In this document: positions 6,321 through 28,743 of the stretch, one piece after another
How positions within the stretch are numbered: position 1 is the stretch's first letter
How the letters are laid out: every line of letters starts with the position of its first letter
Source of the DNA: Arthrobacter sp. V1I7
GTDB lineage: Bacteria > Actinomycetota > Actinomycetes > Actinomycetales > Micrococcaceae
NCBI RefSeq assembly: GCF_030817015.1
Contig: NZ_JAUSYS010000001.1
Span: forward strand, 1,984,001-2,048,000
DNA: 64,000 bases
Reading direction: 5' to 3'
Position numbers and translations under genes: made by a program
Notes under the pieces: model-generated
Databases searched by the model: none
The model's input: the letters and a program-made list of their open reading frames with translations, nothing else
Told to the model about the DNA's origin: nothing

Positions 6321-6707
6321 CGGCCGGATCGCCGCTCGCCCTCGCCGCACCAACCATTCGGCAGCAGATCGGAGACGATCGTCGCGACCCGCTTCGTTGC
6401 CGCAAGCAAATCAGCCATCGCTCCGACGCCCGCGAGCCGGCCGCCCGCCGGGACATTCTGGCCTTCAGCCTTTCCAGCCTGCCCCACTTATCCCTGGCCG
6501 GCTCCATTCCCAAATGACCAGACCGAGAAAATGTCCGGCGAGGGCAGACAAACGGGACACGAACTGGATTAAGCCCTGACAGCTGCTGTCTCGAAAAGCA
6601 AGGCCGGCCAGGAACCTTTGGATGTGCAGCAGCATCGGCTTCGCATCTACACGGAAGACTGAGCCAGCGAGAGGAACGCCCATGCCCGCCAAGGACGAGA
6701 ATGACGA
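6321..6707. other. Non-coding stretch, possible remnant of an upstream transposase gene
   Basis: No convincing frame is visible on either strand. The frames here are short and lack family motifs. In TniA/TniB-type elements a DDE transposase gene normally precedes the ATPase, so this segment may be its decayed 3' end, but nothing in the sequence proves it. Confidence 0.3.
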
Positions 6708-7625: not shown

Positions 7626-8290
7626 GCCGGCGGTCCACCTGAAGTGAGGCAGAAACCATTAATGGGCCAGCTGTAATGGAACTTGGCCAACTTGGATGAG
7701 ACCGAACATCTGAAATGCCGAACGGGCCAGGCTCCAGAAACCGCGCCGAGCTGACGTAACGGCGGTTATCTGCGTAACGAAACAGTCGAAAAACGGGGGA
7801 GTCGGCACTCGCTACCGCCTCGGTGCAGGGTGAAGTGGGCCTTCCGGTGGGCGGCGCTACGGCAAATCCACCCCCGGTGGCAGCAAGAAGCTCTCGATGA
7901 AGATCACGTCCACAGTGGACGGCAGAACCCTGAGACCCAGACGGTTACCGCGCCAGTAAAGGTCGTCGCCGGGACACTCAAGACGGTGACGCCTATCGTG
8001 TGCCGTTATGGCAAGGGAGAAACCTACTTCCGGGACCTACGGAGCACCCGGTCATAAATGTCTTATTGGGCGGCGGGCGGCGGCAGGCAGCGGATCTGCC
8101 TCCGCGTTGTGCCAGCTTGTTCTGCGACGCCAGCATAACTTATCGTCTATCGACCTGGCGTGGTCATTTGAAATCGCCGGACCCATCGTTATGCCGCGCT
8201 ACGATTCGGGGCCAATCGCCTCGGGGGCGGATCCCAAAGGCGCGGTCGGCTCCACACTTAAGGGACATTTATCGACCCTTGGAGGGTGAC
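7626..8290. other. Gene-poor stretch holding transposon-end-like iterons
   Basis: No supported gene lies between the dead ATPase and the lipoprotein start. GGCCA motifs at 7665, 7685 and 7725 fall on an exact 20-nt register (separate repeat entry). From about 7850 to 8050 there are only short frames without recognised motifs. The lipoprotein's promoter must lie in the last 150 bases, but no clear -35/-10 pair was picked out. Confidence 0.4.
7663..7737. repeat. 20-nt-phased GGCCA iterons, candidate transposon end
   Basis: Copies begin TGGGCCAGCTGTAATGG (7663) and TTGGCCAACTTGG (7683), with a third GGGCCAG at 7724. The GGCCA cores start at 7665, 7685 and 7725, that is 20 and 40 nt apart. Elements of the Tn7/Tn5053/Mu type carry several transposase-binding sites of about 20 bp at their ends. 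The set lies directly downstream of the dead TniB-like ATPase and resembles the set at 13697-13757. Confidence 0.5.
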
Positions 8291-9031
8291 ATGCGCAGAT
8301 CAGCAACGTCCGGCGTCGCGGTTTCCGCGGCATTTCTCTTCGCCTTGCTGCTCGCGGGATGCGGCCAGCCGGCAGCGCCCCCGGCAACCTCGACGACGAC
8401 GGCGCCTGCCGAGTCCAGCCCCACCGCGACGGCGAGCCGGCCGGCGTCGCCGACCCCGACCCCCAGTCTCACCGCGTCCGCAGCCTGGACTACATACACG
8501 ACGGCCGACGGCCAGTTGACCTTCGATGTGCCTACAGCCTGGAGCATTAGGGATCCCGCTGGGGATTTGCCTGAAGGTGGTGGCGCATTCGCGGAAGTTA
8601 CCAACCAGGCCGGGAAGCCGATGGCAACACTCCGCACCAATATGGCCGTGGGATCCGCCTGCGTGGAGCGGTTCCCATATTCGGTACTGGAAACCCAGCC
8701 GATGGCCGCCCTGACCCAAGGCGGCTCCACGCCACGGTATGTCTTTGAGACCCGCGGAGACGTCACGGCGCCGTATCCGACTATCAACACCGTAGCTGCG
8801 TACGGCATCGAGACAGCCGCCGCACCCACGGGGGAAGTGGCGTGCCCCATCTTCCACTTCTTCACGTGGCCGCCGACGTCCGCGAGCTTCGGTGCGGGCT
8901 ATAACCCAGTGAACAATGAGACTCCCGGCGACCCGTCGCTGCCGTACCTCGAAAAGGCCAAGCTATACATGGGCACGCCCGAGTACCTGGATATCAAGCG
9001 GATGATCACCTCGTTGCGGCCGACATCGTAG
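8291..9031 (+). CDS. Putative lipoprotein of unknown function
   Basis: The start ATG follows TTGGAGGGTGAC, a strong site at the right spacing; an open frame upstream to 8000 is not used. The N-terminus MRRSATSGVAVSAAFLFALLLAGC is a lipoprotein signal with an LLAGC lipobox, so the mature protein would be anchored to the outer face of the membrane by a Cys at about residue 24. A Pro/Ser/Thr-rich linker of roughly 40 residues follows, then a folded domain (TYTTADGQLTFDVPTAWSI to the end) of about 170 residues. The FDVPTAWSI pattern resembles small secreted actinobacterial domains of unknown role. Partners are not evident. Confidence 0.8.
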   Translation: MRRSATSGVAVSAAFLFALLLAGCGQPAAPPATSTTTAPAESSPTATASRPASPTPTPSLTASAAWTTYTTADGQLTFDVPTAWSIRDPAGDLPEGGGAFAEVTNQAGKPMATLRTNMAVGSACVERFPYSVLETQPMAALTQGGSTPRYVFETRGDVTAPYPTINTVAAYGIETAAAPTGEVACPIFHFFTWPPTSASFGAGYNPVNNETPGDPSLPYLEKAKLYMGTPEYLDIKRMITSLRPTS

Positions 9032-9348
9032 GCTGCCAGTGATGGCCGAAAACCGCCAGGACACCCTGAGCGAAATGTCCGTCGCCGAACCCCGTGTAGC
9101 CAAGGTCGTGAGGAACGCCCTACCCCGTCGCTGCTAACTTGCATCTCTCCCTAACGCCCTCACCGGTAATGGACCACATGTCGGCCTATGTGGCCTGAAA
9201 GGCCAACGGGGGAGTGGTAGCGCGTCTCCTGCTTGGCCTTACTTCACGAGGGCCGCAAGTCGCTTCTGGCAAACGCCGGCACCGCTGGTTTCCGTGTGAT
9301 GGTGGCATGGCGGATGCCGGGGAAACGGGTCCTGTTCGGTTGCGGGGT
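9032..9348. other. Convergent intergenic region
   Basis: This 317-bp gap separates the lipoprotein (plus strand) from the MFS gene (minus strand), which converge on it. Short complementary stretches such as GGCCTATGTGGCC and GGCCTGAAAGGCC (9182-9204) could form small hairpins, but I see no hairpin with a T-run and no gene. Confidence 0.4.
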
Positions 9349-10596
9349 TCAGGTACGGACCCGGTCGCGGCGGCGGTCGATGACCGAAACGATCACAGCT
9401 ACCGTGGTGAGTCCCGCTGCCAGGTACAGGGGTAGGTAGGTGGCCGGGGCAATGATGGCGCCTGCCAAAGCTGTTCCGGCGGAACCGGCGGTGATCTTCA
9501 GGGCGCCGATCCAGACGAATATCTGCCCTCGCGCTTGAGTTGGGGCGTACTCGCTTCGGGCCGCCAGGGTGGCGGCAAAGAAATAGGAGTTAAGGGCTCC
9601 CGCGAGCGAGTAAGCGGCAACAGCCTCAGGAAAGACGCCCGCGAAGGTTATCCCGCAGAGGGCGACGCCGACGGTGGCGGCCAGCCAAGTCATGAGGGGG
9701 TCCGCGTCAGTTCGCATGGGCCGGATCATCACGCCGGCCGAGCCGACAAGACCACCAAGGCCGTATGCTGCCGTCAGGATCCCTGCGGCGGCTGGTTCCA
9801 CTCGCAGCTCTCCGGTGGATGCAACCGCGGTGATGGGCAGAGCCGCGACAGAAAGGGCGATGACGACAGTCAGGTAAAGCGTCCGGCGCATGGGACCGCT
9901 GGATACCATCATCAGCAGTGTTTGTCCGGGACGGGGAATCTCCGAGGGAACAGCAGCTGGCGGTGAGTAGGGCAACAATCGGATTACGGCTGCGGCCACG
10001 AAAGTCGAACCGGCCAGTAGTAAGGCCGCAACAGCCGGATCCGCCCAGGCCGAGACGGCCGCCACCAACGACGGCCCAATAGTGCCGCCGATGCCGTATG
10101 TAGCAACGTCCCACCCTTGGGCCCGCCGCTGGCTGATCCGGTCACTGCCGGCGATCGCAGCGAGGCGGCTGCTGATGCCTCCAGTCAGGAGTGGACCAAC
10201 CAGCCCGGAGGTTATGAGCAGCAAAGCCGGGATGATGGGCGGTGTCAGCGGATACAGCAGGACAGCTGCGGCCAGTGTGACGCCGTGTGCCATGCAGGCC
10301 ACGGCGATCACCGTTCGGCCGTCGCGTGCTGTGTCGAGGCACCTGGCAATGAAAGGGCCGAAGATGTGCGGGGCGGTGATGCACGCGCCCAGGATTCCTG
10401 CCAGCCACCCGGGGGCGCCGCTGGTCGTCACGAGCAGGACGATGGCGACGACGGCACCACCATCCGCGCTGCGAGCCAGAGTAGCGGCAAGAACGTATCG
10501 GGCAAGACCGCCAGGGACGGCGGACTTTTGCCTGTTCTTTTGGGGCTGGATTTTGCTGGGGGACAGGCTCATGTCCCTCTCCGAAGTGTCCGTCAC
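9349..10596 (-). CDS. MFS transporter
   Basis: The 415-aa protein has about twelve hydrophobic segments and an N-terminal MFS signature region (ILGACITAPHIFGPFIARCLD followed by a short basic loop). A longer cytoplasmic loop after helix six contains YSPPAAVPSEIPRPG. It resembles efflux-type members that move small molecules across the inner membrane; the substrate is unknown. The GTG at 10596 is chosen because GGAGG lies nine bases upstream and it sits 5 bp after the stop of the DapA-like gene. An ATG at 10572 is an alternative. Tight spacing with the lyase gene indicates an operon, probably under the divergent MocR regulator. Confidence 0.85.
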   Translation of the reverse strand: MTDTSERDMSLSPSKIQPQKNRQKSAVPGGLARYVLAATLARSADGGAVVAIVLLVTTSGAPGWLAGILGACITAPHIFGPFIARCLDTARDGRTVIAVACMAHGVTLAAAVLLYPLTPPIIPALLLITSGLVGPLLTGGISSRLAAIAGSDRISQRRAQGWDVATYGIGGTIGPSLVAAVSAWADPAVAALLLAGSTFVAAAVIRLLPYSPPAAVPSEIPRPGQTLLMMVSSGPMRRTLYLTVVIALSVAALPITAVASTGELRVEPAAAGILTAAYGLGGLVGSAGVMIRPMRTDADPLMTWLAATVGVALCGITFAGVFPEAVAAYSLAGALNSYFFAATLAARSEYAPTQARGQIFVWIGALKITAGSAGTALAGAIIAPATYLPLYLAAGLTTVAVIVSVIDRRRDRVRT

Positions 10597-10600
10597 TGGG

Positions 10601-11488
10601 TTATGCCTCCAGTCCGATCTGGCGAATGGCCTCAGCGACTTTGTCCCGCCCTTCGCTGTCGAGCCCGCGCAACGGTAATGGCAGCGTCGAGGAGGCCACC
10701 AGTCCGAGGTCCTCTGCAAGGGCTGCCGTGACGCGAAGGCTGCCGTAGGTTCTGAACAGCGACCACACCGGTTCGAGCTGTGCGGACGCTTCCAGGGCCA
10801 GATCGCTCCGGCCAGCCATGGCGTGATCCACAATGGCCCTGGCCCGCTGAGGAGCCACCCCCGCGATCACCGAGTACCAGAGGTCGCAACCGGCAAGCAG
10901 CGCTTCCGCCGCTACCCAGTCCCCGCTAATACCTACAAAGGTTCCCTGCGGCAGACCGGGGCGAAGCTTGCCGAGGCGGCTTGCAACTTCTCCGGCGGCG
11001 GGCGGCGGGATCTTGATTGACGCGATTCCCGGGATACGGGCGATGCGGGCATGCAGGTCATCGGAGAAGGTAAAGCCTGTGGTGCCCGGGTTGTCATAAA
11101 CGACGACGGGAAGCACGGACTCGGCTGCAACGGCTGCGTACAAGGCAAATACTTCCACGTCGGTGAGGCGCTGGTAGGACACCGGAGCCAGGAGCAACGC
11201 GGAGGCACCCGCGTTCTGTGCATCCTCCGCATACGCAAGCACGTCACGTGTGCGCACCGCACCTACACCGGCGAGAACCGGAACGCCGTCAGCGGCGTCC
11301 ACAGCTGCCTCGAGGACGGCTCGGCGTTCGTCACGTGAGAGGTAGGCATAGTTTCCCGTCGAGCCAAGAACGCCCAGGGAGTCCACGCCGGCCTGGGCGG
11401 CGCGGGATACCAGCAGGGCCACGGCTTTGAGGTCGACGCTTTCACCGTTCATGGGGGTGAGGGGAAATGCACTAAGGCCGTTGAACAA
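10601..11488 (-). CDS. DapA/NAL-superfamily Schiff-base lyase
   Basis: This 295-aa TIM-barrel protein belongs to the dihydrodipicolinate synthase / N-acetylneuraminate lyase superfamily. The Schiff-base Lys is in GIASIKIPPPAAG, the conserved Tyr is in VVVYDNPGTTGFTFS, and SLGVLGSTGNYAYLSRDERR matches the phosphate/carboxylate-binding loop (usually GTTGE). The altered GSTGN argues against a housekeeping DapA and for an aldolase or lyase with another substrate. The start is TTG with CAGGA five bases upstream. It is the first gene of an operon with the MFS transporter and divergent from a MocR regulator, which suggests uptake or export plus breakdown of one compound. Confidence 0.85.
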   Translation of the reverse strand: MFNGLSAFPLTPMNGESVDLKAVALLVSRAAQAGVDSLGVLGSTGNYAYLSRDERRAVLEAAVDAADGVPVLAGVGAVRTRDVLAYAEDAQNAGASALLLAPVSYQRLTDVEVFALYAAVAAESVLPVVVYDNPGTTGFTFSDDLHARIARIPGIASIKIPPPAAGEVASRLGKLRPGLPQGTFVGISGDWVAAEALLAGCDLWYSVIAGVAPQRARAIVDHAMAGRSDLALEASAQLEPVWSLFRTYGSLRVTAALAEDLGLVASSTLPLPLRGLDSEGRDKVAEAIRQIGLEA

Positions 11489-13791: not shown

Positions 13792-15558
13792 TCTCAGTAA
13801 ACTGTCGGGCTCCTGACTCGTGCCACTAGGACCGCAAATTTGGGGCAATAGGCCCCTGACCTGCTGTTTCTCGCTGCCGGTAGGGCATTTTTGGTTACTA
13901 AGAACCTCTGGGAAGTAGCCTCGGAGGATGGTTTCACAGTTCGTGCGCAAGATTAGGACGGCCTCGGGCGCCGTCGCGGTCCAGGTCGTGGCGAAGGATC
14001 GTGGCCAGGTCGTTGAGATCGACCATGTGGGCTCGGCCCACACCGACGCCGAGTTGGAACTGCTGCTGGAGTTAGCGCGAGAGAGGCTACATCCTGGCCA
14101 GGGGATGTTGGATCTGGGCCCGCTGCCCCGGATCCAGGCCAGTACCGAGGATGTCGCCGACTGGACCACGGCCGGGCCCATGCCGGTCTCCAGCCCTGGT
14201 GGCCGCCGACGGCTCGTGGCCGGAGGCGGGCGCGTGGTCGCGACCGCTTCGCTGCTGCTCTGGAACGTCCTGACCGAGGCGTACTCCCGTCTGGGATTCG
14301 ACACAGTCGGAGACGACGTGTTCAGATCTCTGGTACTCGCCCGGATCGTCGAGCCTACCTCCAAGGCCGATACCATCCGGGTCCTGGAAGAGATCGGCGC
14401 GGTTGCCCCCTCCCTGCGTACAGTCTTCCGGTGCCTGCAGCGCTGCAACAAGCAGGACTACCGCGGCACTCTGGCCAAGGCGTGCCTGGCCCACTCGGTC
14501 CGAACAACCGGGACCTCGGCCATGGTGCTCTACGACGTCACCACGCTCCACTTCGAGAACGAGGACGAGGACGCTCTGCGCAAGGTCGGGATGAGCAAGG
14601 AGCACCGCGTCGACCCGCAGGTCCAGGTCGGGCTTCTCGTGGACCCGGCCGGGTTCCCGCTGGAGATGCACCTGTTCGAGGGCAACAAGGCCGAGACGAC
14701 CACTCTCGTCCCCGTTCTGGAAGCCTTCCAAGAACGCCACGGCGTGACGGACATGGTCGTGGTGGCCGATGCGGGCATGCTCTCGGCGGGGAACCTGAAC
14801 GCGCTCGAGGATGCCGGGTTCTCCTTCATCGTCGGCTCCCGCCTGACCAAAGCCCCCTACGACCTCGCCGAGCACTTCGAACGCCGCGGGGACTACTTCG
14901 AAAACGGGCAGATCCTCGAATCCAGGCGCGTGATGGGCACCGGCAAGAACGGGCGGGAGCGCCGGATCGTCTACCAGTACTCCTTCAAGCGCGCCAAACG
15001 GGACAACCGCAATATCAACCTCATGATCGACAAAGCCGAACGCATCGCCGACGGGAAGGCCCCGCTGAAGAAGGCCAGATTCCTCAAGGTCACCGGCGCC
15101 CAGAAGGCTCTCGACCAGCCCACCATCGACCGCGCCCGCCAGCTCGCCGGCCTCAAGGGCTACGTCACCAACCTCCCCGAGACCAAGATGCCCGGCACCG
15201 CGGTGATCAGCGCCTACCACGACCTCTGGCAGGTCGAGGCCTCCTTCCGCATGACCAAATCCGACCTACGCGCCCGGCCCGTGTTCCACCGTCAGCGGGA
15301 GGCCATCGAAGCCCACCTCACCGTCGTGTTCGCAGCCCTCGCCATCGCACGCCATCTGCAGGAGGCCACCGGGGCATCCATCAAGCGCATCGTCCAGACC
15401 CTACGCGCAGTCCGATCAGCGACCATCGAACTCAACGGACAACGCCTGACCCTCGACCCCGACATACCGTTGGAAGCCCAAAACCTCCTCGCAGAACTCG
15501 GCCGCGAAGGTCACTAAGCCAGTTGGCACGAGTCAGGTCTCAGTAAACTGTCGGGCTC
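13792..15558 (+). mobile_element. IS1634-family element with 20-21 bp flanking direct repeats
   Basis: Terminal inverted repeats are CCTGACTCGTGCCA at the left (from 13812) and its complement TGGCACGAGTCAGG at the right (ending 15537). Immediately outside, the same 21 bases occur at 13792-13812 and 15538-15558, beginning TCTCAGTAAACTG. One terminal C can be assigned to either repeat or element. IS1634 of Mycoplasma is known for unusually long, variable target duplications, and this copy fits that behaviour. It contains one intact transposase gene. Confidence 0.9.
13928..15517 (+). CDS. IS1634-family DDE transposase
   Basis: The 529-aa protein carries the IS1634/IS4-like DDE core: MVLYDVTTLHFENEDEDALRKVG (first Asp), VVVADAGMLSAGNLNALEDAGFSFIVG (second Asp) and AYHDLWQVEASFRMTKSDLRARPVFH (catalytic Glu in the Y-x-x-L-W-x-V-E-x-x-F signature). 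An N-terminal region of about 100 residues ends in RRRLVAGGGRVVAT. The gene fills the element between its inverted repeats and ends 20 bp before the right tip. It is full length with all catalytic residues visible. Confidence 0.95.
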   Translation: MVSQFVRKIRTASGAVAVQVVAKDRGQVVEIDHVGSAHTDAELELLLELARERLHPGQGMLDLGPLPRIQASTEDVADWTTAGPMPVSSPGGRRRLVAGGGRVVATASLLLWNVLTEAYSRLGFDTVGDDVFRSLVLARIVEPTSKADTIRVLEEIGAVAPSLRTVFRCLQRCNKQDYRGTLAKACLAHSVRTTGTSAMVLYDVTTLHFENEDEDALRKVGMSKEHRVDPQVQVGLLVDPAGFPLEMHLFEGNKAETTTLVPVLEAFQERHGVTDMVVVADAGMLSAGNLNALEDAGFSFIVGSRLTKAPYDLAEHFERRGDYFENGQILESRRVMGTGKNGRERRIVYQYSFKRAKRDNRNINLMIDKAERIADGKAPLKKARFLKVTGAQKALDQPTIDRARQLAGLKGYVTNLPETKMPGTAVISAYHDLWQVEASFRMTKSDLRARPVFHRQREAIEAHLTVVFAALAIARHLQEATGASIKRIVQTLRAVRSATIELNGQRLTLDPDIPLEAQNLLAELGREGH

Positions 15559-15853: not shown

Positions 15854-17143
15854 TTACGATTTCTTCGTCCTCACATTCTTGGCGAAGTCGTCGTAGATGC
15901 TTTTATTGCTACTTACTGTGGCTTCCATAAGTGAGGTGAAGAGAGCCAAAACCGCTTTTACGTTAGAGCTGCTCTTCAATCCTTGGTTAGTCGCCGGCTT
16001 CAGTTGCTCTGAGAAGGAGAGGGCCGTGCGCACAACTGGAAGCCAAAGCTTGACACCCTGTTCAGGCTTTAGGTTGTTCTTCTTGAACTCGATGTCGACT
16101 CGAGAGGTTACAACTTCGGATAGGATCACCTCTACGCATGACGCGATCGCGGCGACAGTCAGTACGAGAGCGCCGCGAGAGCTCAGGAATGCAGCATGAG
16201 TCTTCTGTTGTGCCGTTCGATCGTCCTCTGCCAGCGCTGTGATCTCTTGTTTGACTTGTTCTACGGCTTTTAGAAGCGAATGGCAGAACAACACGTGTTT
16301 AGCAGAGAGGGACTCATTGAAGAACCGAGCGTATATTGCGTCGTCCTCCCAAATTTGCCGGGTTTCGTTATACCCCAGGTTGGGTTCGCCATGGAAAGCT
16401 GCCAGTGATTGGGCAACCGAGCCGTCTGCCAGCAGATTCTTTTCACGACGCATAGCATCAGTGCTGCCCCCTCTACGCCCACCGCGATATTCGGCATCAG
16501 GAATAGACTCGAATTGCGACCTAAGACGCTGCTGAACGGCGTCCCCGCTGCGGAAGTCAGTTGCTTGGACTTTATTTTGAGTATTGTTGAATTTAACTAC
16601 GCTGTTGACAATATTTGGATCTGCGCTTGATATAAATCGAACTTGCACCCAGGCATCATGAAGGTTGACCGCCTCTTCATCAGTTAGCTCGCCTAGGGAG
16701 CCGGTTGTCTGTCCACCATTCACGATGCCAATACCGTCAATTTCGATAGACGTCTTATCTTCATCCGCTAAGGCCTGGTATTTGTTCACTAAGGCCGTGA
16801 TGCCGTTGTTGAAAATAAGGAAATCCTTGGGGTTCCCCTGCGCCGTCAATTTGATGTTGTGATTGATATTCTGCGTAGACTTTCTGGAACCGAGGTATTC
16901 GCGTATGTTAGGGGAGAGCAGGGCAGATTTGTGCTCCGTCCAAGTGGTTCTCAGAGCGTCTGCCCGGACTGCCGTGCAGTATGTGTTCCAAGTGGGTCCC
17001 GCAACTTCAAAACCGCCCTTCGTCTCGAAGGTGAAAGTGTCAGAGACAAGAATGGGCGCTTTCCCTCTTCGATATATGTCCTCGATACTCTCGATGCCTA
17101 TTTGTCGCGCAAAGACATCAACATCCGAACTCGGGGCGCCCGA
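15854..17143 (-). pseudogene. AIPR-family (abortive phage infection) protein, 5' truncated
   Basis: AIPR-domain proteins are linked to abortive infection against phage. The hallmark NPKDFLIFNNGITALVNKY and IGIVNGGQTTGSLGEL block is present, as is VKFNNTQNKVQATDFRS. An apparent TTG start at 16849 is misleading: upstream the same frame stays open to 17143 and encodes further family-like sequence (SALLSPNIREYLGSRKSTQ runs directly into the block). No start codon is available before an in-frame stop at 17144-17146. The true N-terminus, often 100 or more residues, is therefore lost at a junction with an unrelated regulator fragment. Base composition is visibly more AT-rich than its neighbours, consistent with transfer. 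Confidence 0.8.
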
Positions 17144-17159
17144 TCAACGCGGCGGGCGA

Positions 17160-17279
17160 GGTGTCGGCGATCGCTGGACCCTGATCGTGCTCCGCGACAT
17201 CGTCTTCGGAGACAAGCGCTATTTCCGAGAGCTGCACGCCGGCCTCGCCGTGCGCGGTCAAGAGGAAATACTCGTCTAG
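17160..17279 (+). pseudogene. Fragment of an HxlR-type winged-helix regulator
   Basis: The frame GVGDRWTLIVLRDIVFGDKRYFRELHAGL is the characteristic first half of HxlR regulators (usually I-G-D-K-W-T-L-L-I-L-R-D). The usual N-terminal Cys region and the whole second half are missing, and the frame ends within 20 residues. It is joined directly to the broken AIPR gene and overlaps the end of the subtilase by four bases. It is a recombination scar with no expected function. Confidence 0.65.
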
Positions 17280-19273
17280 GGGATAGGGCGGGTCTGCCGG
17301 ACTTGCTGGTCACTGTTAGCGGACTGCGAATCGGGCGTAATTGCGCCGCTCACCACGAGTGCGAACCCTTGCGTGGGTCCGAAGTTGACTTCAGTTGCGA
17401 TGACTTCGGCGCTCCACTGACCGGGTTGGGCGTCTACCACGACCATTTCGGTTGGGTTGAGCGTGTCCGGGACGCCGCCGGGCGCTGACTGGCCGGCGAT
17501 GAAATGGTTACCCAGAAACACGTCGCCGTTCGGTGCGGTCACCCGGAGGTCGAGGTTGTTGATGGCGCTGTTGTCCGAGCCGATCGTGCCCGGCGGTTCC
17601 GTCCAGTTGAGTGTGACGGCGAGGGGGGCGGATTGCTCGAGGGAGAATTGAAGCAGACACGTCGCACCGGTTACGAGCCCATCCTTATTCCGCACGTCGA
17701 GCAGCAGGCGTGGGGCGTGCTGTCCCAGTGCCGCAACGGGTTTGAGCGCGCCCCAGCCCCGTGTGGGGCTCGGTATCTCGGTATTGTTGCCGGTCGCGAC
17801 GGTCGAGTTGAGTGCGATCGCCCGGATCAGTGCCGCCGTCGGCGCGAAACCGTCTTCGGGCCGCGGATGTCCGTCACGGTACCGTCCCTCGATGAGTTGT
17901 TGGCGGACGAGGGTTAGGACAGCGGCGACCCATGGGGTGGCGTAGCTGCTCGCGCAGGGGACAGCCGCGGCGTTTAGCTCGCATAGTGTGCCGATCCGGG
18001 CGGACATGACGCCGCATCCGACACCCGTCAGGTCCGGCTTTCGGCGTCCATCGGCGGTCGGTCCCGCGTTGCCGTCGCCGACGGTGTCTCCGGGTTGGCC
18101 TACTGCTGTAGCGCTGACGCAGAGGGCATTCTTCGCTGTGCCAGGGGGGCCCTGCTCTTCGTCGCTGTTGCCGCTCGATCCGACGACGACGTGGTCTTCG
18201 TTCGCCGAAACGAAGGCGTCCACGCCTGCCGAGTGCGGGTCGTAGGTGGCCGGGCGGCCGACGCCTTGCGGTTTGGCGTGCCAGCTGTTGCTGTGCACTG
18301 TCGCACCGCTCTGGGAGGCGGCGGCCAGTTCGATCATTATGGTGCTTGTGGTCTTGACGTCGCTGACGTTGCCGCATGTCAGGCGGGCGCCGGAGGCGAC
18401 TCCTCGCTGTGGGTGCGCGCCGAGGCCGCCTGCAGCGTCGCCGGCGGCGATGCCGCAGGTGAAGGTGGCGTGTTTGCCTGTTGGCCTCTGGGCGGAGTTG
18501 CGTACCAGCAGGACTTTCCGGTGGTTGGGCCCGGGCTGCGGGTGTTCGGTGTCGGTGAAGAAGCAGTGGTCGAGGTCCGGTGGTCCGTTGTCGATCATTC
18601 CGATGACCTGGCCGGCTCCGGTCAGGCCCAGCCTTTCGATCTCGGGTATCCGGCCTGCCGTCGTGAGCACCGGGTTCCCTGCGGTGCCTCCTCGGTCTTC
18701 GCTGACCTCGGGCACTTCCTGGACCCAGCGGACACCTTGCATTTCAGCGATCCGTGCCGCAGTGGCGGAGTTGCCGGTGATGCGGATCAGGAACTTGCCT
18801 CCCAGTGGCCGTTCGTCGAGGACGGCGATGATCCGCTCCGGTGGGAGAAGTTCCTGTACTTGGGTAAGAACCGACTCTGCCTGCGAATTAAAGGCGATCA
18901 CGTCGATAGGTGCGGGGGCGGTTGGCTCGTCGACCTGCTCTTCGTTGCGTAACTCGGCCGAAACTTTGAGATCGTTGGTCATCTGCGCGACCGCCCGCAC
19001 CCGCTCATCGCTTCGCAGTTGTGCCGCCGTGGCCGGGTCGAGCACTTCGATATAGCAGTTGCGGGGCACGTATTCGGTAAGTTTCAGGCCGAATTCGGAT
19101 CGGAGCTGCTCGGTTGCCTCGGCCTTGAGAGTCTCGAAAAACTGGACGATCCAGGCGGGTTCGCTCGCCATGTCGATCGGCTCGTCAAGGTTCGACTGGA
19201 GGTCCTGTTCAACGAGTGGATCGAAAGTGCGTCCGGCCATCGAGATGGCGGTATCCGTGCGAGGCTGGTTCAT
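17276..19273 (-). CDS. Subtilisin-like (S8, KP-43-type) serine protease without signal peptide
   Basis: The 665-aa enzyme has a complete catalytic triad: Asp near residue 228 (VIGMIDNGPP), His near 268 (TGKHATFTCGIAAG) and Ser near 443 (PCASSYATPWVAA). The oxyanion-hole Asn is near 369 (VVVGSSGNSDEE). Residues about 50-190 form two propeptide-like modules (LTEYVPRNCYIEVLDPATAA; KFLIRITGNSATAARIAEMQ). The C-terminus is a beta-sandwich like that of KP-43 proteases (INNLDLRVTAPNGDVFLGN, ending GFALVVSG). No signal peptide is visible, so it should act in the cytoplasm unless exported otherwise. The ATG has AGGAG seven bases upstream and overlaps the stop of the toroid gene (ATGA), implying coupled translation and a shared substrate pathway. 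Confidence 0.92.
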   Translation of the reverse strand: MNQPRTDTAISMAGRTFDPLVEQDLQSNLDEPIDMASEPAWIVQFFETLKAEATEQLRSEFGLKLTEYVPRNCYIEVLDPATAAQLRSDERVRAVAQMTNDLKVSAELRNEEQVDEPTAPAPIDVIAFNSQAESVLTQVQELLPPERIIAVLDERPLGGKFLIRITGNSATAARIAEMQGVRWVQEVPEVSEDRGGTAGNPVLTTAGRIPEIERLGLTGAGQVIGMIDNGPPDLDHCFFTDTEHPQPGPNHRKVLLVRNSAQRPTGKHATFTCGIAAGDAAGGLGAHPQRGVASGARLTCGNVSDVKTTSTIMIELAAASQSGATVHSNSWHAKPQGVGRPATYDPHSAGVDAFVSANEDHVVVGSSGNSDEEQGPPGTAKNALCVSATAVGQPGDTVGDGNAGPTADGRRKPDLTGVGCGVMSARIGTLCELNAAAVPCASSYATPWVAAVLTLVRQQLIEGRYRDGHPRPEDGFAPTAALIRAIALNSTVATGNNTEIPSPTRGWGALKPVAALGQHAPRLLLDVRNKDGLVTGATCLLQFSLEQSAPLAVTLNWTEPPGTIGSDNSAINNLDLRVTAPNGDVFLGNHFIAGQSAPGGVPDTLNPTEMVVVDAQPGQWSAEVIATEVNFGPTQGFALVVSGAITPDSQSANSDQQVRQTRPIP

Positions 19274-21054
19274 GGCCTGCTCCTTCCGCTGGGTGGATGC
19301 GTGAAGAGGCGAAACGAGGTATTCATCCGGGCAAGCGCCCACCAGACGGCCAGCGAAATCGGGAGCCGTATGTCGATGTCCGGATCCATTTCGCCGGTTT
19401 CGGTGGCTGGGGGGATGACGCCGAAGCCGCCATCGGGGCATTGCTGCGCGTGCAGGAACGCGGTCACGGAACGAATCCGCTCGGGAACCAGTGGTCCAAA
19501 CGCGTGCGCACTCCGCAGCAGTGAGCACCCGGTAACCAGATTTGACCGGCGCAGTGTATCGATCGCAAGTGATTCGAGACGGCGTGCTACCTGGCCGTCC
19601 GGCTGCGGCAACGGCGCGTCGCCGTATGCGGCGGCAAGTCGCCGGACGTGGTCGGGATCAACCTGCCGTACGGCCAGCGCTTGCCATAATTGCGCAGGGG
19701 CAGGGAGATTCGCCGGTGCCAGCAGTCCGAGTTGGGTAAGTATCGCCCTTTCCTCACACCACCTGGACTGGCTGCCGGATGTTTGGCTGTCCACAATAGA
19801 TCGGACTCCGTCGACGAAACCGGTCAGGATCGGAACGTCCATCCCGCGGCCGCGTAGAATGCCGAAAACTGCCAAGGTGAGCGTGGCCGGAACGGCCGCG
19901 AGTTGAGCGCTTTCCTGCAGACGTGCGGTGAGCTGTTTGGCGGCCCTGTCCGCCAGAGCAGTGGCGCGTTCGTCGATGGCGCTGATCAGGGTCGTGCCGA
20001 CGAGCGCGCCCATGACTGCGGTCGGGGTCGACTGCGGGGTTTCCATGATGGCGGCGAACCAGGCGGCGCCCTGGCTCGTGGACGACTGGTTCGTGCGCTC
20101 TGCTCGGGGCGCGACGCTCCGAACCTCGTGGTCTGGATCGGCTAATGTCTCACGCCCGATCCTGCTCATAGTTGCGAGGACGAGGACCAGGGTGCTGTGG
20201 TATCTCTCAGCGAAACGCCGTTCGTCCGGCGGTGCACTACCGGTGCGGGTTGCGTAGGCGCCGGGGTCCGTTTGTTCGATCGCCACGATCGAGCCGTCGA
20301 GGTCCTGGGCAGCGGTGAGCTCGGACCATGCGTTCTCGTAGCTGGTGTCGTGGTTGAAACGCAAGCAGTCCCAGGACAACAGCAGCTCACCCACCAGGTC
20401 CCAGTGCCCCTGGCGTCCAAAGCGCACCAGGGCGTCGGACACGACTCGGTGCAGTTGGTCGAGTTGCTGCGGGGTCAGTTCGCTCGGCGGGCGGTCACCG
20501 AATGCGCAGCCGAACATCACGTCGTGGGTTAGCTCGTAGATCGATCGCTCGGTTTGGTAGAGCGCGTCGGGGTTCCGGACTAGGAGTGATGATGCCGTGA
20601 GCTCGGCGAGCGGAGGCAGGTGGTGGCTGAACCCGCCCCAGTCGAGGATTGTCCGCTCGATCATCACATGGTGCGGGAGGCGCCCGGTCTGATCGAGCAG
20701 GCCTGTGTCGATAGCCCGTTGGATCGCTGCCTCATGCGCCGGGTCCGGGTTGCTGGTGATCCTGAGAAATGCGCACAGGCCGGCCCGCAGGATCAAATGA
20801 TTGCTGTTGCGGACAGGTCGGTTGCGAAGCTCGGGTACTTGTGCGGCCGTGGTGAGCCGGTCGATGATCTGGGTGGCGCTCGGCTGCTCGTCGATCAGTC
20901 CATGCCGGATGCCGTGCACCATGAGGACGATCAGCTCAAGCAGAGGCTTGTTCTGCGATTCGTTCTTACTATCCTGTCGCGGCACGAATTGATTCAGCTG
21001 TAGTGCGAGCCAGTCCATAGCTGCCGCCGCCGCGGAACGCCGGAACACCTGCAA
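19270..21054 (-). CDS. Alpha/alpha-toroid-like protein with DUF6895-like region
   Basis: No characterised function is recognised. The 594-aa product is helical and soluble. A middle block (SIYELTHDVMFGCAFGDRPPSELTPQ, followed later by HWDLVGELLLSWDCL) resembles DUF6895 proteins as I recall them. Near the C-terminus TAFLHAQQCPDGGFGVIPPATE matches the QW-type motif of alpha/alpha-toroid enzymes (terpene cyclases, prenyltransferases and relatives). The start is taken as TTG with AGGA five bases upstream; a GTG at 21048 or ATG at 21018 is possible. It follows the second small-peptide gene by 21 bp, in the same frame after its TAG, and overlaps the subtilase start by ATGA. Role in modifying or binding the peptides is inference. 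Confidence 0.75.
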   Translation of the reverse strand: MQVFRRSAAAAAMDWLALQLNQFVPRQDSKNESQNKPLLELIVLMVHGIRHGLIDEQPSATQIIDRLTTAAQVPELRNRPVRNSNHLILRAGLCAFLRITSNPDPAHEAAIQRAIDTGLLDQTGRLPHHVMIERTILDWGGFSHHLPPLAELTASSLLVRNPDALYQTERSIYELTHDVMFGCAFGDRPPSELTPQQLDQLHRVVSDALVRFGRQGHWDLVGELLLSWDCLRFNHDTSYENAWSELTAAQDLDGSIVAIEQTDPGAYATRTGSAPPDERRFAERYHSTLVLVLATMSRIGRETLADPDHEVRSVAPRAERTNQSSTSQGAAWFAAIMETPQSTPTAVMGALVGTTLISAIDERATALADRAAKQLTARLQESAQLAAVPATLTLAVFGILRGRGMDVPILTGFVDGVRSIVDSQTSGSQSRWCEERAILTQLGLLAPANLPAPAQLWQALAVRQVDPDHVRRLAAAYGDAPLPQPDGQVARRLESLAIDTLRRSNLVTGCSLLRSAHAFGPLVPERIRSVTAFLHAQQCPDGGFGVIPPATETGEMDPDIDIRLPISLAVWWALARMNTSFRLFTHPPSGRSRP

Positions 21055-21075
21055 TCCGATCCTGCCCGTGGCGCC

Positions 21076-21288
21076 CTACTGGTCCTTGCTGTGGTAGAGC
21101 ACGTAGGTTTCGTGGACGAAGAGGTCCGTCACGCTCTGCTCGTCTTCGTCCTCGGCGTGTTCCTGAGACGTCTCGACGATTTTACGAGCCAGTGTGGGGA
21201 GATCGAAGATGCTCTGCTTGGCCAGGGCGGCCATCACATCCTCGAGCGCGGGGACTCCTTGAATCGGTGTAGAGGTTGAATCGGCCAT
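21076..21288 (-). CDS. Small acidic peptide, paralogue 2 (candidate precursor or substrate)
   Basis: The 70-aa product MADSTSTPIQGVPALEDVMA... shares the core EDVMAALAKQSIFDLPTLAR with the next peptide upstream. After an acidic variable stretch (EHAEDEDEQS) it ends LFVHETYVLYHSKDQ. A GGGAGCTGGC ribosome-binding site precedes the ATG, nearly the same as that of paralogue 1. The conserved amphipathic N-terminal half followed by an acidic linker and an aromatic C-terminal motif recalls leader-core precursors of modified peptides. No Cys is present, which excludes lanthionine or thiazole chemistry from Cys. Its role is unknown. Confidence 0.8.
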   Translation of the reverse strand: MADSTSTPIQGVPALEDVMAALAKQSIFDLPTLARKIVETSQEHAEDEDEQSVTDLFVHETYVLYHSKDQ

Positions 21289-21364
21289 GCCAGCTCCCAG
21301 TGGATTGTTCGGTGAGTGGATGTGAAGGTTGTTGTTCCCCGTCGGCTGCGCGAGTGCCGGCACA

Positions 21365-21559
21365 TCATTCCTCTTTGTGCACGTATACGTAACTGGAGTG
21401 GACAAACATCTCGCCGACGTACGATGAGTCCTCGTTCTCAGTGCGTTCTTCGGCGTCTTGGATGAGTCGGCGGGCTAGTGTCGGCAGATCAAAAACGCTC
21501 TGCTTGGCAAGTGACGCCATGACGTCTTCAACGTTCGGTGTCCCGATGAATTCGGCCAT
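21365..21559 (-). CDS. Small acidic peptide, paralogue 1 (candidate precursor or substrate)
   Basis: The 64-aa product MAEFIGTPNVEDVMASLAKQ continues SVFDLPTLARRLIQDAEERT and ends MFVHSSYVYVHKEE. It aligns with paralogue 2 over its whole length, with strongest identity in EDVMA-LAKQS-FDLPTLAR and in the FVH-x-x-YV-x-x-H tail. It is the first gene of the four-gene cassette, 25 bp after a predicted transcription start, with ribosome-binding site GGGAGCTGAA. High expression relative to the enzymes downstream would be expected from its place. It has no Cys and no signal peptide. Confidence 0.8.
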   Translation of the reverse strand: MAEFIGTPNVEDVMASLAKQSVFDLPTLARRLIQDAEERTENEDSSYVGEMFVHSSYVYVHKEE

Positions 21560-21590
21560 TTCAGCTCCCTGCTCGTTCCGGATTGACTAC

Positions 21591-21619
21591 AGGGTAGGCG
21601 CTGTCATTACCGGTGGCAA
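21591..21619 (-). promoter_or_regulatory. Predicted sigma-70-type promoter of the peptide-toroid-subtilase cassette
   Basis: Reading the minus strand, TTGCCA (21614-21619) and TACCCT (21591-21596) are separated by 17 bp. The predicted start of transcription falls near 21584, about 25 nt before the ATG of the first small peptide. No operator symmetry was noticed. Confidence 0.55.
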
Positions 21620-21733
21620 TAGTCCGCGTTGACTCATAGGAAATGCGCGCGAAGCAGGTATCGAAGAATCATCTGAGAATGCGCGCTAGGCGGGGTGTCC
21701 GCCGGCCCGGCACGCTGGGCCACGGGGCTGTCA

Positions 21734-22226
21734 ATGAACGAACGCAAGGCTGTGACGAAGGCGATCGCGACCCGGTATGCGCGGTCGGACCGGTCGGCCA
21801 AGAGGATCATCCTGGACGAGCTATGCGCGACGGCCGGGTGGCACCGCGACCACGCGCGCAAGGCGCTGCGCCAGTCGCTGGTGCTGCGGAAGGTCAGGCC
21901 CAGGTCGCCGAGGCCGCCGATCTACGGGGAGCCGGTGATTACGGCGCTGCGGCCGTGCTGGGCCGTTCAGGGCAACCCATGCGGGCGGCTGCTGGCCGCG
22001 GCGCTGCCGGACCTGGTGCCGAGGCTGCGCCGCCACGGCGAGCTGGTCATCGATGACGGACGCCGCGGCGCTGCTGGTGCGGATCTCCCCGGCCACCATC
22101 GACCGGCGGCTCGCGGCCGACCGGGCAAAACTCGGGGCCCGGGGCCGCTCACACACGAAGCCCGGGTCGCTGTTGAAGGACGCCATCCCGATGCGGACGT
22201 GGGCCGAATGGAACGATGCGAAGCTC
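21734..22226 (+). pseudogene. 5' remnant of an integrase-type transposase gene
   Basis: The frame beginning MNERKAVTKAIATRYARSD, followed by KRIILDELCATAGWHRDHARKALRQ, matches the start of an actinobacterial transposase with an integrase core. Near 22045 sense moves to another frame (DDAAALLVRISPATIDRRLAADRAKL continuing SHTKPGSLLKDAIPMRTWAEWND), so there is a frameshift. The catalytic core that should follow is missing after about 22226. It is an inactive fragment just upstream of the peptide cassette, transcribed away from it. Confidence 0.65.
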
Positions 22227-22349
22227 CGCGGTACTGCAGGCTGTAGGCGAATTCGAGGCTCATCGGATCGATCATGGACGTGGGTGCCTTTCACCGGATG
22301 AAGGTCGCTGTGCGCTGGATTCAGCATAAGACCGACCCGCGACCCCGTC

Positions 22350-25686: not shown

Positions 25687-26883
25687 ATGACGGTCTACCT
25701 GAGGTCCCTGGAAACTGCTGTTCCACCAACTGTCCTGGTCCAAACCGAAGCGCGTGACGTCTTTGCGGCCCAGCCCGGACTGACGAGGCTCGGTACGCGG
25801 CTCGTCAGCACCTGCTTTGACTCGGCAGCCATCGACACCCGCTACACGGCCGTCGAGGAACTCACCCTGGACCGCCGGGCCGAGAATCCCCGGTTCTTCG
25901 ATTCCGCCACCGGCCTTCTGCTCAGTCCCAGCACCAAGGCCCGGAACGACATCTTTGCCACCGAGGCCACCAAACTCTTTATCGAGTCCGCCCAAAAAGC
26001 CCTGGACGCCTGCCCGGGAATTGATCCACTTGACATAACTCACCTGGTGACGGTCTCCTGCACCGGTTTTTTCAACCCGGGCCCGGACTATAAGATCGTG
26101 CGCGCCTTGGGCCTGAACCCGGCCGTTCAGCGGTACCACCTCGGCTTCATGGGCTGCTACGCCGCCTTTCCCGCGCTGCGGGCCGCGAAGTCCTTCTGCG
26201 AGGCCGATCCGGAGGCCGTGGTGCTGGTGGTCTGCGCCGAACTCTGCTCCCTGCACGTCCGGACCTCGAATGATCCGGACACCATCATGGGCTCGGCCCT
26301 GTTCGCCGACGGTGCGGCTGCGGCCATCATCAGCGCGCGGGACATCCCCGGTGAACCGGCGCTCCTGCAGTTGGACCACTTCGAAACGGTTCTGACGCCC
26401 GTCGGCGAGGAATCCATGGCATGGAACATCGGCGACCAAGGCTTCGAGATGGTGCTCGGCAACTACGTTCCGCACATCATCGACGACCACATCATCGGCG
26501 CACTGGAACCGCTGCTGTCCCGGGAGGTTTCCCTGCTCGGACTCCCCTACCGCGACATCCGGCACTGGGCCATCCATCCCGGCGGCCGCAGCATCCTGGA
26601 CAAGGTGCAGTCCCGGCTGGGGCTCAGCGACGAGCAGCTGGTACCGGCCCGGGAAACGCTCCGGAACTTCGGCAACATGAGCAGTGCGACGGTGCTGTTC
26701 GTGCTCAGGCACATCCTGGACCTTCCGGGCGAAGACGGCAACGAACGGATCTGTTCGATGGCGTTCGGGCCCGGGCTGACAGTCGAAACGGCACTCTTCA
26801 CCAAGCTCCGCGACACCGCGACGGCGGCTTCCGCGCGGACGGAGCGAAGCGCCGCCGCCCTGCCGGAATCCGCGCTGGCCTGA
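25687..26883 (+). CDS. Type III polyketide synthase
   Basis: This 398-aa chalcone-synthase-like enzyme condenses an acyl-CoA starter with malonyl-CoA units. The Cys-His-Asn triad is visible: Cys157 (LGFMGCYAAFPAL), His297 (HWAIHPGGRSILD) and Asn330 (RNFGNMSSATVLF). The length is normal for the family. It is the first gene of an operon; a SAM methyltransferase starts 9 bp after its stop and an FAD monooxygenase overlaps that. The set resembles systems that make methylated, hydroxylated alkylresorcinols or quinones, such as Streptomyces SrsABC. The starter unit cannot be deduced. Confidence 0.95.
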   Translation: MTVYLRSLETAVPPTVLVQTEARDVFAAQPGLTRLGTRLVSTCFDSAAIDTRYTAVEELTLDRRAENPRFFDSATGLLLSPSTKARNDIFATEATKLFIESAQKALDACPGIDPLDITHLVTVSCTGFFNPGPDYKIVRALGLNPAVQRYHLGFMGCYAAFPALRAAKSFCEADPEAVVLVVCAELCSLHVRTSNDPDTIMGSALFADGAAAAIISARDIPGEPALLQLDHFETVLTPVGEESMAWNIGDQGFEMVLGNYVPHIIDDHIIGALEPLLSREVSLLGLPYRDIRHWAIHPGGRSILDKVQSRLGLSDEQLVPARETLRNFGNMSSATVLFVLRHILDLPGEDGNERICSMAFGPGLTVETALFTKLRDTATAASARTERSAAALPESALA

Positions 26884-26891
26884 GGCGCAAC

Positions 26892-27593
26892 GTGGAGCTT
26901 CTGCGGGAACGTGCAACTGACGCGGTCGAGCAAATGGACCTGCCCGGCTGTGACCCGGCCCGGCTGGACCGGACCTACGAGCAGTTTGCGCTGGTCAACC
27001 GGGCCGTCTCCGGCTGGCGCGGCCTGTACCTCCGTGAGCTCCGGCCCCGGCTCAGGGCAGGCTCAGCCACGACCCTCCTCGACATCGGCTGCGGCGGCGG
27101 GGACGTGCCGGTAATGCTGGCCCGTTGGGCCTCCCGCGACGGGCTCCGGCTTGAGATCACGGCCATCGACCCGGATCCGCGGGCCAGCCGTTTCGCCGCC
27201 AAACATCATCCGGCGGCCGGCGTGACGTTCCGGCAGGCGACTACAGCCGGCCTGGTCCGCGAGGGCCGCAGCTACGACTTCGTCGTATCCAACCACGTGC
27301 TCCACCACCTGGCAGCGGACGAGTTTCCGGCCTTCCTGGCCGAGTCGGGAAAACTCTGCCACGGCCGGGTCATCCATAATGACCTGCGGCGCAGTGTCCT
27401 GGCCTATGCGCTCTTCTTCGCCGGCTCCCGGCCTCTCACCGGCTCCTATATCCGGCAGGACGGGCTGACGTCCATCCGGCGGAGCTACACGACGGCGGAG
27501 CTCCGTGCCGCCGCTCCCCCGGGCTGGACGGTGGTACGCCGCGCCCCCTACCGGAACCTGCTGATCCTCGACAAAAGCGCCGCGGGTGCCTGA
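26892..27593 (+). CDS. Class I SAM-dependent methyltransferase of the PKS operon
   Basis: The 233-aa enzyme starts at GTG, 9 bp after the PKS stop; the open frame further upstream lies inside the PKS gene and is not used. The SAM-binding motif I is TTLLDIGCGGGDVPVMLARW, the acidic motif II is EITAIDPDPRAS, and SYDFVVSNHVLHHL is the motif typical of small-molecule methyltransferases. It probably methylates the polyketide ring oxygen or carbon. The last codons overlap the GTG start of the monooxygenase by 8 nt, so all three genes form one transcript. Confidence 0.9.
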   Translation: MELLRERATDAVEQMDLPGCDPARLDRTYEQFALVNRAVSGWRGLYLRELRPRLRAGSATTLLDIGCGGGDVPVMLARWASRDGLRLEITAIDPDPRASRFAAKHHPAAGVTFRQATTAGLVREGRSYDFVVSNHVLHHLAADEFPAFLAESGKLCHGRVIHNDLRRSVLAYALFFAGSRPLTGSYIRQDGLTSIRRSYTTAELRAAAPPGWTVVRRAPYRNLLILDKSAAGA

Positions 27594-28743
27594 GGTCCTG
27601 GTCATCGGCGGCGGACCGGTCGGCCTGTTCATGGCCGCCCTGCTGCTGCAAAACGGCGTGCGGGTCCGGGTGCTCGAACAGCGCGCCGCGCCGGACCCGC
27701 ACTCCCGGGCCATCGGCATCCACCCTCCCGCGCTGGACGTGCTGGAACGGATCGGCGTCGCGCAGGAACTGGTGGCCGGGGGGATCCCGATCCGTCGCGG
27801 CATCGCGGTCGGCGGCGGGCGGCAGCTCGCGGAGATGAACTTCGACGGCGTGTCGGAGAGCTACCCCTTCGTCCTGTCCCTACCCCAGAGCCGTACCGAG
27901 GCAGCCCTGGAACGGCGCGTCCGGGCGCTCGATCCCGGCGCCCTGCACCGCGGCGTCGGGCTCACCGGCCTGCACGACGACGGCGCTCAGGTCACGGTGA
28001 CGGGCAGCTCACCCACGGGGCCGGTCCGGTATTCGGCGAACCTCGTGATCGCCGCCGACGGGGTCCGCTCCACCGTGCGGACACTGCAGGGAACGGCGGT
28101 GCATGCCAAGGACTATCCCGACACCTACCTGATGGGCGACTTCGCCGACGGCACCTGCCTCGGCCCGGACGCCGCGCTCTTCCTGGCGTCGGAGGGGATT
28201 GTCGAGTCCTTCCCGCTGCCCGGGGTCCAGCGCCGCTGGGTGCTCCGGCTCAACGGGTCGGACAGGGCGGGGAGTGCTGCGCTGCACGCCAAGACCGACG
28301 CCGGCTGGCTGGCGGAGCGCGTCCGGGACCGCACCGACATCCATGTCGACGCCGGCAGCAACAGCATGCTCAGCAGCTTCGGCGCACGGTCACGGCTGGC
28401 ACGCCGGATGGTGACCGGACGGACAATCCTGATCGGCGACGCCGCCCACGAGATCAGCCCTATCGGAGGCCAGGGCATGAACCTGGGCTGGCTCGACGCT
28501 GTGGCGCTGGCGCCGCTCGTGCTCGCCGCCGTGCGGGGTGCCGACGCGGGAGCGCAACTGCAAAGGTTTGAACGCAACCGGATGACGGCCGCCGTCAGGG
28601 CGATGCGGCAGGCGGAGATCAATATGGCGCTGGGCCGGCCGCTCGCCGGCACCCTCCTTGACATCAGGAACAACGCGATCTCGGCGGCCGCCGCGGTCCC
28701 GGCGCTGAATTCATTCGTGGCCCGCCGTTTCACCATGCAGTGA
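27586..28743 (+). CDS. FAD-dependent aromatic hydroxylase of the PKS operon
   Basis: This 385-aa flavoprotein is of the p-hydroxybenzoate hydroxylase type. The Rossmann motif VLVIGGGPVGLFMAALLLQ is at the N-terminus, NLVIAADGVRSTVR is the DG motif, and TILIGDAAHEISPIGGQGMN is the GD motif that binds the FAD ribityl chain. It begins at a GTG overlapping the methyltransferase stop. In this setting it would hydroxylate the phenolic product of the type III PKS, possibly leading to a quinone. The substrate is inferred from the operon. Confidence 0.92.
   Translation: MPEVLVIGGGPVGLFMAALLLQNGVRVRVLEQRAAPDPHSRAIGIHPPALDVLERIGVAQELVAGGIPIRRGIAVGGGRQLAEMNFDGVSESYPFVLSLPQSRTEAALERRVRALDPGALHRGVGLTGLHDDGAQVTVTGSSPTGPVRYSANLVIAADGVRSTVRTLQGTAVHAKDYPDTYLMGDFADGTCLGPDAALFLASEGIVESFPLPGVQRRWVLRLNGSDRAGSAALHAKTDAGWLAERVRDRTDIHVDAGSNSMLSSFGARSRLARRMVTGRTILIGDAAHEISPIGGQGMNLGWLDAVALAPLVLAAVRGADAGAQLQRFERNRMTAAVRAMRQAEINMALGRPLAGTLLDIRNNAISAAAAVPALNSFVARRFTMQ

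Follow-up and report, generated by a model that had tools for sequence, protein, structure and literature searches.

The 64,000-nucleotide stretch of Arthrobacter sp. V1I7 analysed here (contig NZ_JAUSYS010000001.1, positions 1,984,001 to 2,048,000; hereafter the window) contains a cassette of four genes, all running in one direction on the minus strand from 21559 to 17276. The cassette comprises (i) pepA (21365..21559), encoding a 64-amino-acid (aa) peptide with the leader VEDVMASLAKQSVFDLPTLA and a core around HSSYVYVH; (ii) pepB (21076..21288), encoding a paralogous 70-aa peptide with a core around HETYVLYH; (iii) a gene with a TTG start (19270..21054) for a 594-aa DUF6895 protein, predicted to be a toroid and a putative peptide-modifying enzyme, for which an epimerase activity is proposed; and (iv) the gene of a 665-aa KP-43-type S8 subtilase (17276..19273), with a pro-domain-like region and an intact triad, a putative leader peptidase. 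Both peptides are putative precursors of a ribosomally synthesised and post-translationally modified peptide (RiPP). In pepA and pepB, GGGAG lies 5 bases ahead of the ATG; as the initial annotation had described, the gap between pepB and the 594-aa gene amounts to 21 bp and the latter overlaps the subtilase gene by ATGA. The cassette is real, conserved, rare and RiPP-like.

One promoter had also been placed before the set. A promoter-like block, TTGCCA-17-TACCCT (21591..21619, minus strand), lies upstream of pepA and is conserved when the DNA is aligned with that of Arthrobacter sp. PsM3, with the similarity fading upstream of it, whereas a plain sigma-70 consensus scan of 16700-22200 missed this block and gave no promoter. 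In public entries, the window's own proteins begin later (582 aa for the DUF6895 protein; 488 aa for the S8 protein, at 73% query cover), but the PsM3 S8 entry comprises 661 aa, which favours the long form of the subtilase.

The same four-gene order occurs in PsM3 (6491-10776 of locus L004), where the cassette is flanked by open reading frames (ORFs) interpreted as a cobalamin-dependent methionine synthase on one side and an ATP-binding cassette transporter on the other. As far as both loci were read, they have no further gene in common, and no transporter or immunity gene common to the two was seen; because the flanks differ, the four genes appear, from this comparison, to move as a unit. The ratios of nonsynonymous to synonymous substitution rates (dN/dS) against the PsM3 copies are 0.146 for pepA, 0.223 for pepB, 0.330 for the DUF6895 gene and 0.137 for the S8 gene, and all four are under purifying selection.

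Protein searches extended this co-occurrence, yielding 13 DUF6895 homologues (only the 7,996 candidates with the most words in common with the query scored), 20 peptides and 209 S8 proteins at E <= 1e-30 (8,000 candidates scored), with the best 120 of the 209 compared. Partners were recognised by exact agreement in longest-contig size between the homologue lists, the DNA itself being seen for the window and PsM3 only. With the window's own protein excluded, nine of 12 DUF6895 homologues match a peptide and/or an S8 protein in this way (peptide 6, S8 8, both 5), namely (i) both partners for longest contigs of 155998, 87275, 557757, 5010 and 4949; (ii) S8 only for 5394, 62812 and 87962; and (iii) the peptide only for 7786. 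In addition, a longest contig of 43072 is common to one peptide and one S8 protein. Since exact agreement is unlikely to be accidental, and a contig of some 5 kb has little spare room, the same set is expected on several more contigs. The initial annotation had staked its proposal on peptides and enzymes occurring together across genomes, and they do so in PsM3 and, by longest-contig size, for these nine homologues. In the window's family, the long DUF6895 form turned up in a single genome of 395, the window's own; in another family, one of 245 genomes has it, as a partial match of 28.8 bits. A peptide profile, searched without a positive control, had no match among the 391 genomes covered in that other family's order. 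Of 394 genomes in the class, 32 carry a DUF6895 domain above its cut-off, a few of these being weak matches, and viral contigs contained no relative.

The alignment of 19 peptides displays a nearly fixed stretch, VEDVMAALAKQSIFDLPTLA (the leader consensus), followed by an acidic linker and a variable C-terminus that centres on Tyr-Val-x-x-His. Numbered on PepB, the leader (14-36) has a mean column entropy of 0.70 bits and the core (54-70) one of 1.92 bits; in the core, Tyr62 and His66 are the only nearly fixed positions, at 0.30 bits each. A conserved leader joined to a more variable core is the usual pattern of RiPP precursors, which PepA and PepB resemble by their nearly fixed N-terminal part and variable C-terminus. 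The locus also has the second general hallmark of RiPP pathways, a precursor gene beside that of an enzyme and kept together with it, the modifying role of this enzyme being suggested by its family. A lanthipeptide was ruled out, with no cysteine in PepA, PepB or the other family peptides inspected by eye, and NCBIfam gave no match at E <= 1 for the peptides, the toroid protein or the subtilase.

The N-terminal half of the 594-aa protein (residues 1-300; 20155..21054, minus strand) comprises the DUF6895 domain and matches the hidden Markov model of the Pfam family (PF21836) with 172.5 bits, against a curated cut-off of 23.8, which secures the DUF6895-like character first noticed by the initial annotation. 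DUF6895 is predicted to adopt an (α/α) toroid, and the C-terminal half (residues 301-594; 19270..20154, minus strand), read as a second helical domain, carries a QW-like motif. In this N-terminal half, Y173, T176, H177, D219, L220, E223, G254 and H286 are identical in all 31 chosen DUF6895 sequences. A sequence search of the PDB with DUF6895 gave a single match at E 0.97, and Foldseek gave nothing at E <= 0.001. By hhalign, the counterpart of the C-terminal half is a separate gene at two loci, encoding 242 aa at L051 (97.9% probability) and 215 aa at L068 (93.3%), and the L051 relative matches DUF6895 at 21.5 bits, below the cut-off of 23.8. Alignment of the two halves by hhalign gave nothing that would make the C-terminal half a second DUF6895 copy, and its identification with the 240-aa partner protein of Streptomyces, described below, was not supported by the same method. 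Weak matches to DUF6902 (PF21843; cut-off 27) occur at L067 6986-8740 (21.4 bits), L068 7935-8879 (18.8 bits) and L054 9307-10248 (15.4 bits); from these sub-cut-off matches, the DUF6895 and DUF6902 families may be related.

A function for the family is named in the title of a paper by Shi et al., which speaks of a DUF6895 family epimerase in lasso peptide modification (ACS Catal. 2026, doi 10.1021/acscatal.5c08590, cited in PMC13352647). Going by this title, some member of DUF6895 is an epimerase in RiPP modification, a statement about that member and not thereby about the branch in the window. As far as seen, neither enzyme of the cassette belongs to a known unrelated pathway, the circumstance that the initial annotation had named as telling against it; the only DUF6895 function found reported lies, by the same title, in RiPP chemistry. 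A lasso peptide was ruled out for the window, the best match to the lasso B2 family PF13471 in its genome being 15.2 bits against a cut-off of 26. An asparagine-synthetase-like domain is present in none of the four cassette proteins, although no search aimed at a lasso cyclase was made.

The subtilase matches Peptidase S8 (PF00082) with 58.3 bits against a cut-off of 21.8, and its triad D228, H268 and S443 is invariant in 31 of 31 sequences. The protein carries a pro-domain-like region, and the model displays two N-terminal β-α-β regions. No N-terminal hydrophobic segment was found by eye, and a cytosolic location, as first proposed, is probable.

A wider set of 44 stretches was taken for DUF6895 hits, with a tblastn match in 40 of them (none in L040, L046, L047 and L048). 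In 28 of the 40, counting L009 and L076, which are one contig, a 240-aa protein is followed by one or two DUF6895 genes and then by a homologue of PF00144-type hydrolases; these cassettes, from Streptomyces and other actinomycetes, were observed at L005-L009, L049, L050, L052, L053, L055-L059 and L069-L082. One hydrolase matches PF00144 in Pfam with 180.4 bits, and for two of them the best NCBIfam model, among many beta-lactamase models, is that of the AmpH D-Ala-D-Ala carboxypeptidase, below its cut-off. The one 240-aa protein tested had no Pfam match, and in a comparison of six short ORFs and two 240-aa proteins with NCBIfam no model matched at E <= 0.01. An upstream short ORF is present in 28 of 28 cassettes, bare presence being weak evidence because the script takes the best-scoring ORF of 40-100 aa; the motif SPPTPRP occurs in 18 of these ORFs, a hydrophobic run followed by an SP(K/R)xP end in five, and an NLA(C/V)A(Q/R)AF end in three. 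This recurring actinomycete arrangement looks like an undescribed RiPP pathway. It shares with the window a short ORF, DUF6895 and a terminal serine hydrolase, but differs in having (i) one or two separate DUF6895 genes of about 310 aa; (ii) the 240-aa protein, unrelated by hhalign; (iii) a beta-lactamase-fold hydrolase in place of S8; and (iv) peptide ends that are hydrophobic or proline-rich, unlike those of PepA and PepB. Direct homology of PepA and PepB with the short ORFs of these beta-lactamase-type cassettes was rejected, no similarity being found.

At three plasmid loci, in Streptomyces sp. NBC_00857, Kitasatospora cathayae and Pseudalkalibacillus hwajinpoensis, DUF6895 begins 37-78 bp past a short ORF. 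The Pseudalkalibacillus plasmid (Bacillota; L068 7608-9527) carries the short ORF with DUF6895 split into N and C genes and no adjoining protease annotated, and the plasmid loci L066 and L067 lie near IPT/TIG-domain proteins and type I polyketide synthase genes. In genome G448 (L043 7420-11610), a matrixin/astacin-like protease, a 75-aa ORF (...WDGYLLIYKGD...), a methyltransferase, DUF6895 and a TauD-like oxygenase are consecutive. Inspection of L051 and L054 by eye revealed no short peptide upstream. Besides PsM3, none of the 44 stretches has an S8 match at E <= 1e-5, which indicates that the short peptide goes with DUF6895, and the cassette would thus be a single branch within a larger group of short-ORF/DUF6895 loci, from actinomycete genomes and one Bacillota plasmid, of which no description was found.

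Kinship of the precursors across these loci was assessed with a profile built from the short ORFs of NBC_00857 (H7, taken from an internal methionine rather than the annotated 118-aa start), Kitasatospora (H8) and G448 (L043); the L052 ORF was used without its first two residues. Against 3,000 shuffles for each of nine targets, this profile scored the Bacillota ORF H9 above all, the divergent window-family peptide P0032 above 2,999 and L042 above 2,993, and missed L060 (above 2,942; 58 of 3,000 shuffles as high). In a pool of 3,958 ORFs of 40-150 aa from DUF6895 loci plus 19 window-family peptides, the ranks after two training ORFs were taken by H9 (E 0.0057), by seven window-family peptides and by L042, which appears twice, between the sixth and the seventh of these peptides; the first unrelated ORF came at rank 13. 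In the reverse direction, the shuffles scoring as high, of 3,000, numbered 75 for H8, 86 for H7, 51 for L043, 220 for L060 and 2,201 for L042, and only the H7+H8+L043 profile links the peptide groups. The A3 profile was weak against single peptides of other groups (21 of 2,000 shuffles for L043, 147 for L049 and 151 for L060; L042, L052 and L055 were worse), and among 15 pairs tested only L043-P0032 (p ~0.005) and L042-L060 (~0.002) stood out. The precursors of the window family and of the plasmid and G448 loci are thus probably related; kinship is graded no higher because the window-family peptides are interdependent, most E-values lie near 1 and the reverse search fails.

The initial annotation had offered two readings, a peptide natural product or a conflict or signalling system. 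Co-occurrence, the leader/core pattern, the protease in the operon and, by its title, the DUF6895 paper support the first. A RiPP architecture is highly probable, and within such an architecture epimerisation, taken by analogy from the family, is the likely reaction; for the whole reading, a compact RiPP pathway with an epimerising toroid and a leader-cutting subtilase, we claim modest confidence. PepA and PepB would be the precursors. The 594-aa protein would recognise their conserved leader, and its DUF6895 half, as the catalytic toroid, would modify the short core at their C-terminus, around H-x-x-Y-V-x-x-H. Family and fold suggest that this toroid epimerises at least one core residue from L to D, the conserved tyrosine or its neighbours being the first candidates, with the invariant His177/His286 and Asp219/Glu223 possibly acting as acid-base or metal-site residues and the second half of the protein possibly holding or positioning the substrate. 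Synthesised together with a pro-domain, the subtilase would then remove the leader in the cytosol, as the operon and the zymogen-like design suggest.

Several observations weigh against this pathway. The fold matches of the toroid are spread over many toroids of different chemistry, and the epimerase function comes from one title, which concerns a lasso peptide. PF13471 is present in 16 of 32 DUF6895 genomes, but where it shares a contig with DUF6895 the two are at least ~38 kb apart (the shortest distance, in G700), a distance test in which the surroundings are cut off on the short contigs G635:C216, G644:C132, G574:C101 and G731:C115 (5-18 kb). Three of the 12 DUF6895 homologues have no partner by longest-contig size (4298, 3032 and 195584), and the S8 family is larger, most rows among the best 120 of 209 having no visible DUF6895 link. 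As for the precursors, the H7/H8/L043 profile scored PepA above 2,922 and PepB above 2,838 shuffles (78 and 162 of 3,000 as high), PepA ranked 40th and PepB fell outside the first 40 in the profile search, and the reverse profile missed H9 (2,125 of 3,000 shuffles as high).

In the strongest alternative, the same RiPP architecture carries another toroid reaction on the core, such as cyclisation, a Tyr/His cross-link or the addition of a group, since cyclases and further enzymes are also built on toroid folds; with epimerisation as the sole family activity found reported, by title, and no oxidase or radical-enzyme gene among the four, we regard this as unlikely, if the most serious contender. 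A conflict or defence module, with the protease as effector and the peptides and toroid as sensor or inhibitor, is suggested by the partial AIPR/AbiU-like ORF adjoining the cassette and by the generic PADLOC subtilase model, which matches weakly at 35.6 bits; on the other hand, neither the peptides nor the toroid match any PADLOC model at E <= 1, no defence gene was seen beside the four genes in the PsM3 stretch read, and other DUF6895 loci have the short ORF yet no S8 match, which together leave such a module very improbable and the conflict or signalling half of the initial proposal with little in its favour. About as improbable is that the peptides act in trans as inhibitors, chaperones or propeptides of the subtilase rather than as toroid substrates, despite the operon that they share with it and their ends of beta-rich composition, which we take to be loosely like I9 propeptides.

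Beyond the epimerising pathway proposed for the window, we put forward as a tentative suggestion, held with rather less confidence, that DUF6895 toroids form a large undescribed RiPP superclass independent of lasso chemistry and spanning Actinomycetota and Bacillota, of which the window would be the compact four-gene form. One or two toroids, as the main tailoring enzyme, would introduce D-residues without a radical enzyme into a short precursor whose leader is conserved and whose core is aromatic or hydrophobic, and the last protease would be swappable: S8 here, a beta-lactamase-fold and possibly D-specific enzyme in Streptomyces and relatives, and a matrixin/astacin-like enzyme in one genome. 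All the parts belong to known folds or families, and in the literature searched, which left out most subscription journals, the combination is not described and neither PF21836 nor the peptide strings QSIFDLPTLA and SPPTPRP gave a match. If the proposal is right, two precursors, one toroid and one protease would be a minimal set for placing mirror-image residues in ribosomal peptides. An enzyme family of which little has been described could then have its chemistry tested in a laboratory strain, and DUF6895 after a short ORF would serve as a search handle for peptide pathways still hidden in Streptomyces and its relatives. Because D-residues raise the protease resistance of peptides, the route has practical interest.

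The cassette lies in an accessory region (2049-26000 of the window), as judged from guanine-plus-cytosine content, which is 57-64% at 12-26 kb but 65-71% at 26-36 kb, and from the transposases (IS110-like, Mutator-type and IS1634) that lie at 2.0-4.9 and 13.9-15.5 kb. Outside the cassette, the flanks comprise the partial AIPR/AbiU-like ORF (15854..16849, minus strand) and the IS1634 transposase (13928..15517, plus strand). Abutting the subtilase stop, 16863-17279 on the plus strand reads GDRWTLIVLRDIVFGDKRYFREL, by eye a fragment of an HxlR-type regulator, and on the other flank 21695-22246 was read as a transposase remnant; neither has a Pfam match. Further along, a type III polyketide synthase, a methyltransferase and a flavin-adenine-dinucleotide-dependent oxidoreductase are consecutive at 25687-28743, forming a small biosynthetic operon.

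Among known systems, the subtilase is of the KP-43 type, whose members are secreted enzymes. Compared to KP-43 and SubHal (1wmd, 5fax), the window protein differs in lacking an N-terminal hydrophobic segment and in its two N-terminal β-α-β regions. PagA, the cyanobactin maturation protease (4h6w, prenylagaramide), is an S8 protease of a RiPP pathway and appears at Foldseek rank 36 (E 4.9e-12), one among many S8 matches of the window subtilase and outside the closest ones. MslH, the epimerase of the lasso peptide MS-271, has a metallophosphatase-like fold, unlike the toroid predicted for the window. MslH is reported to epimerise a ribosomal peptide, as proposed for the window enzyme (PMC10406935). 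The DUF6895 epimerase of Shi et al. has the Pfam family in common by name with the window protein and, by its title, a lasso substrate, whereas the window, in a genome with no PF13471 match over the cut-off, combines a 594-aa two-domain enzyme with an S8 protease in the same operon.
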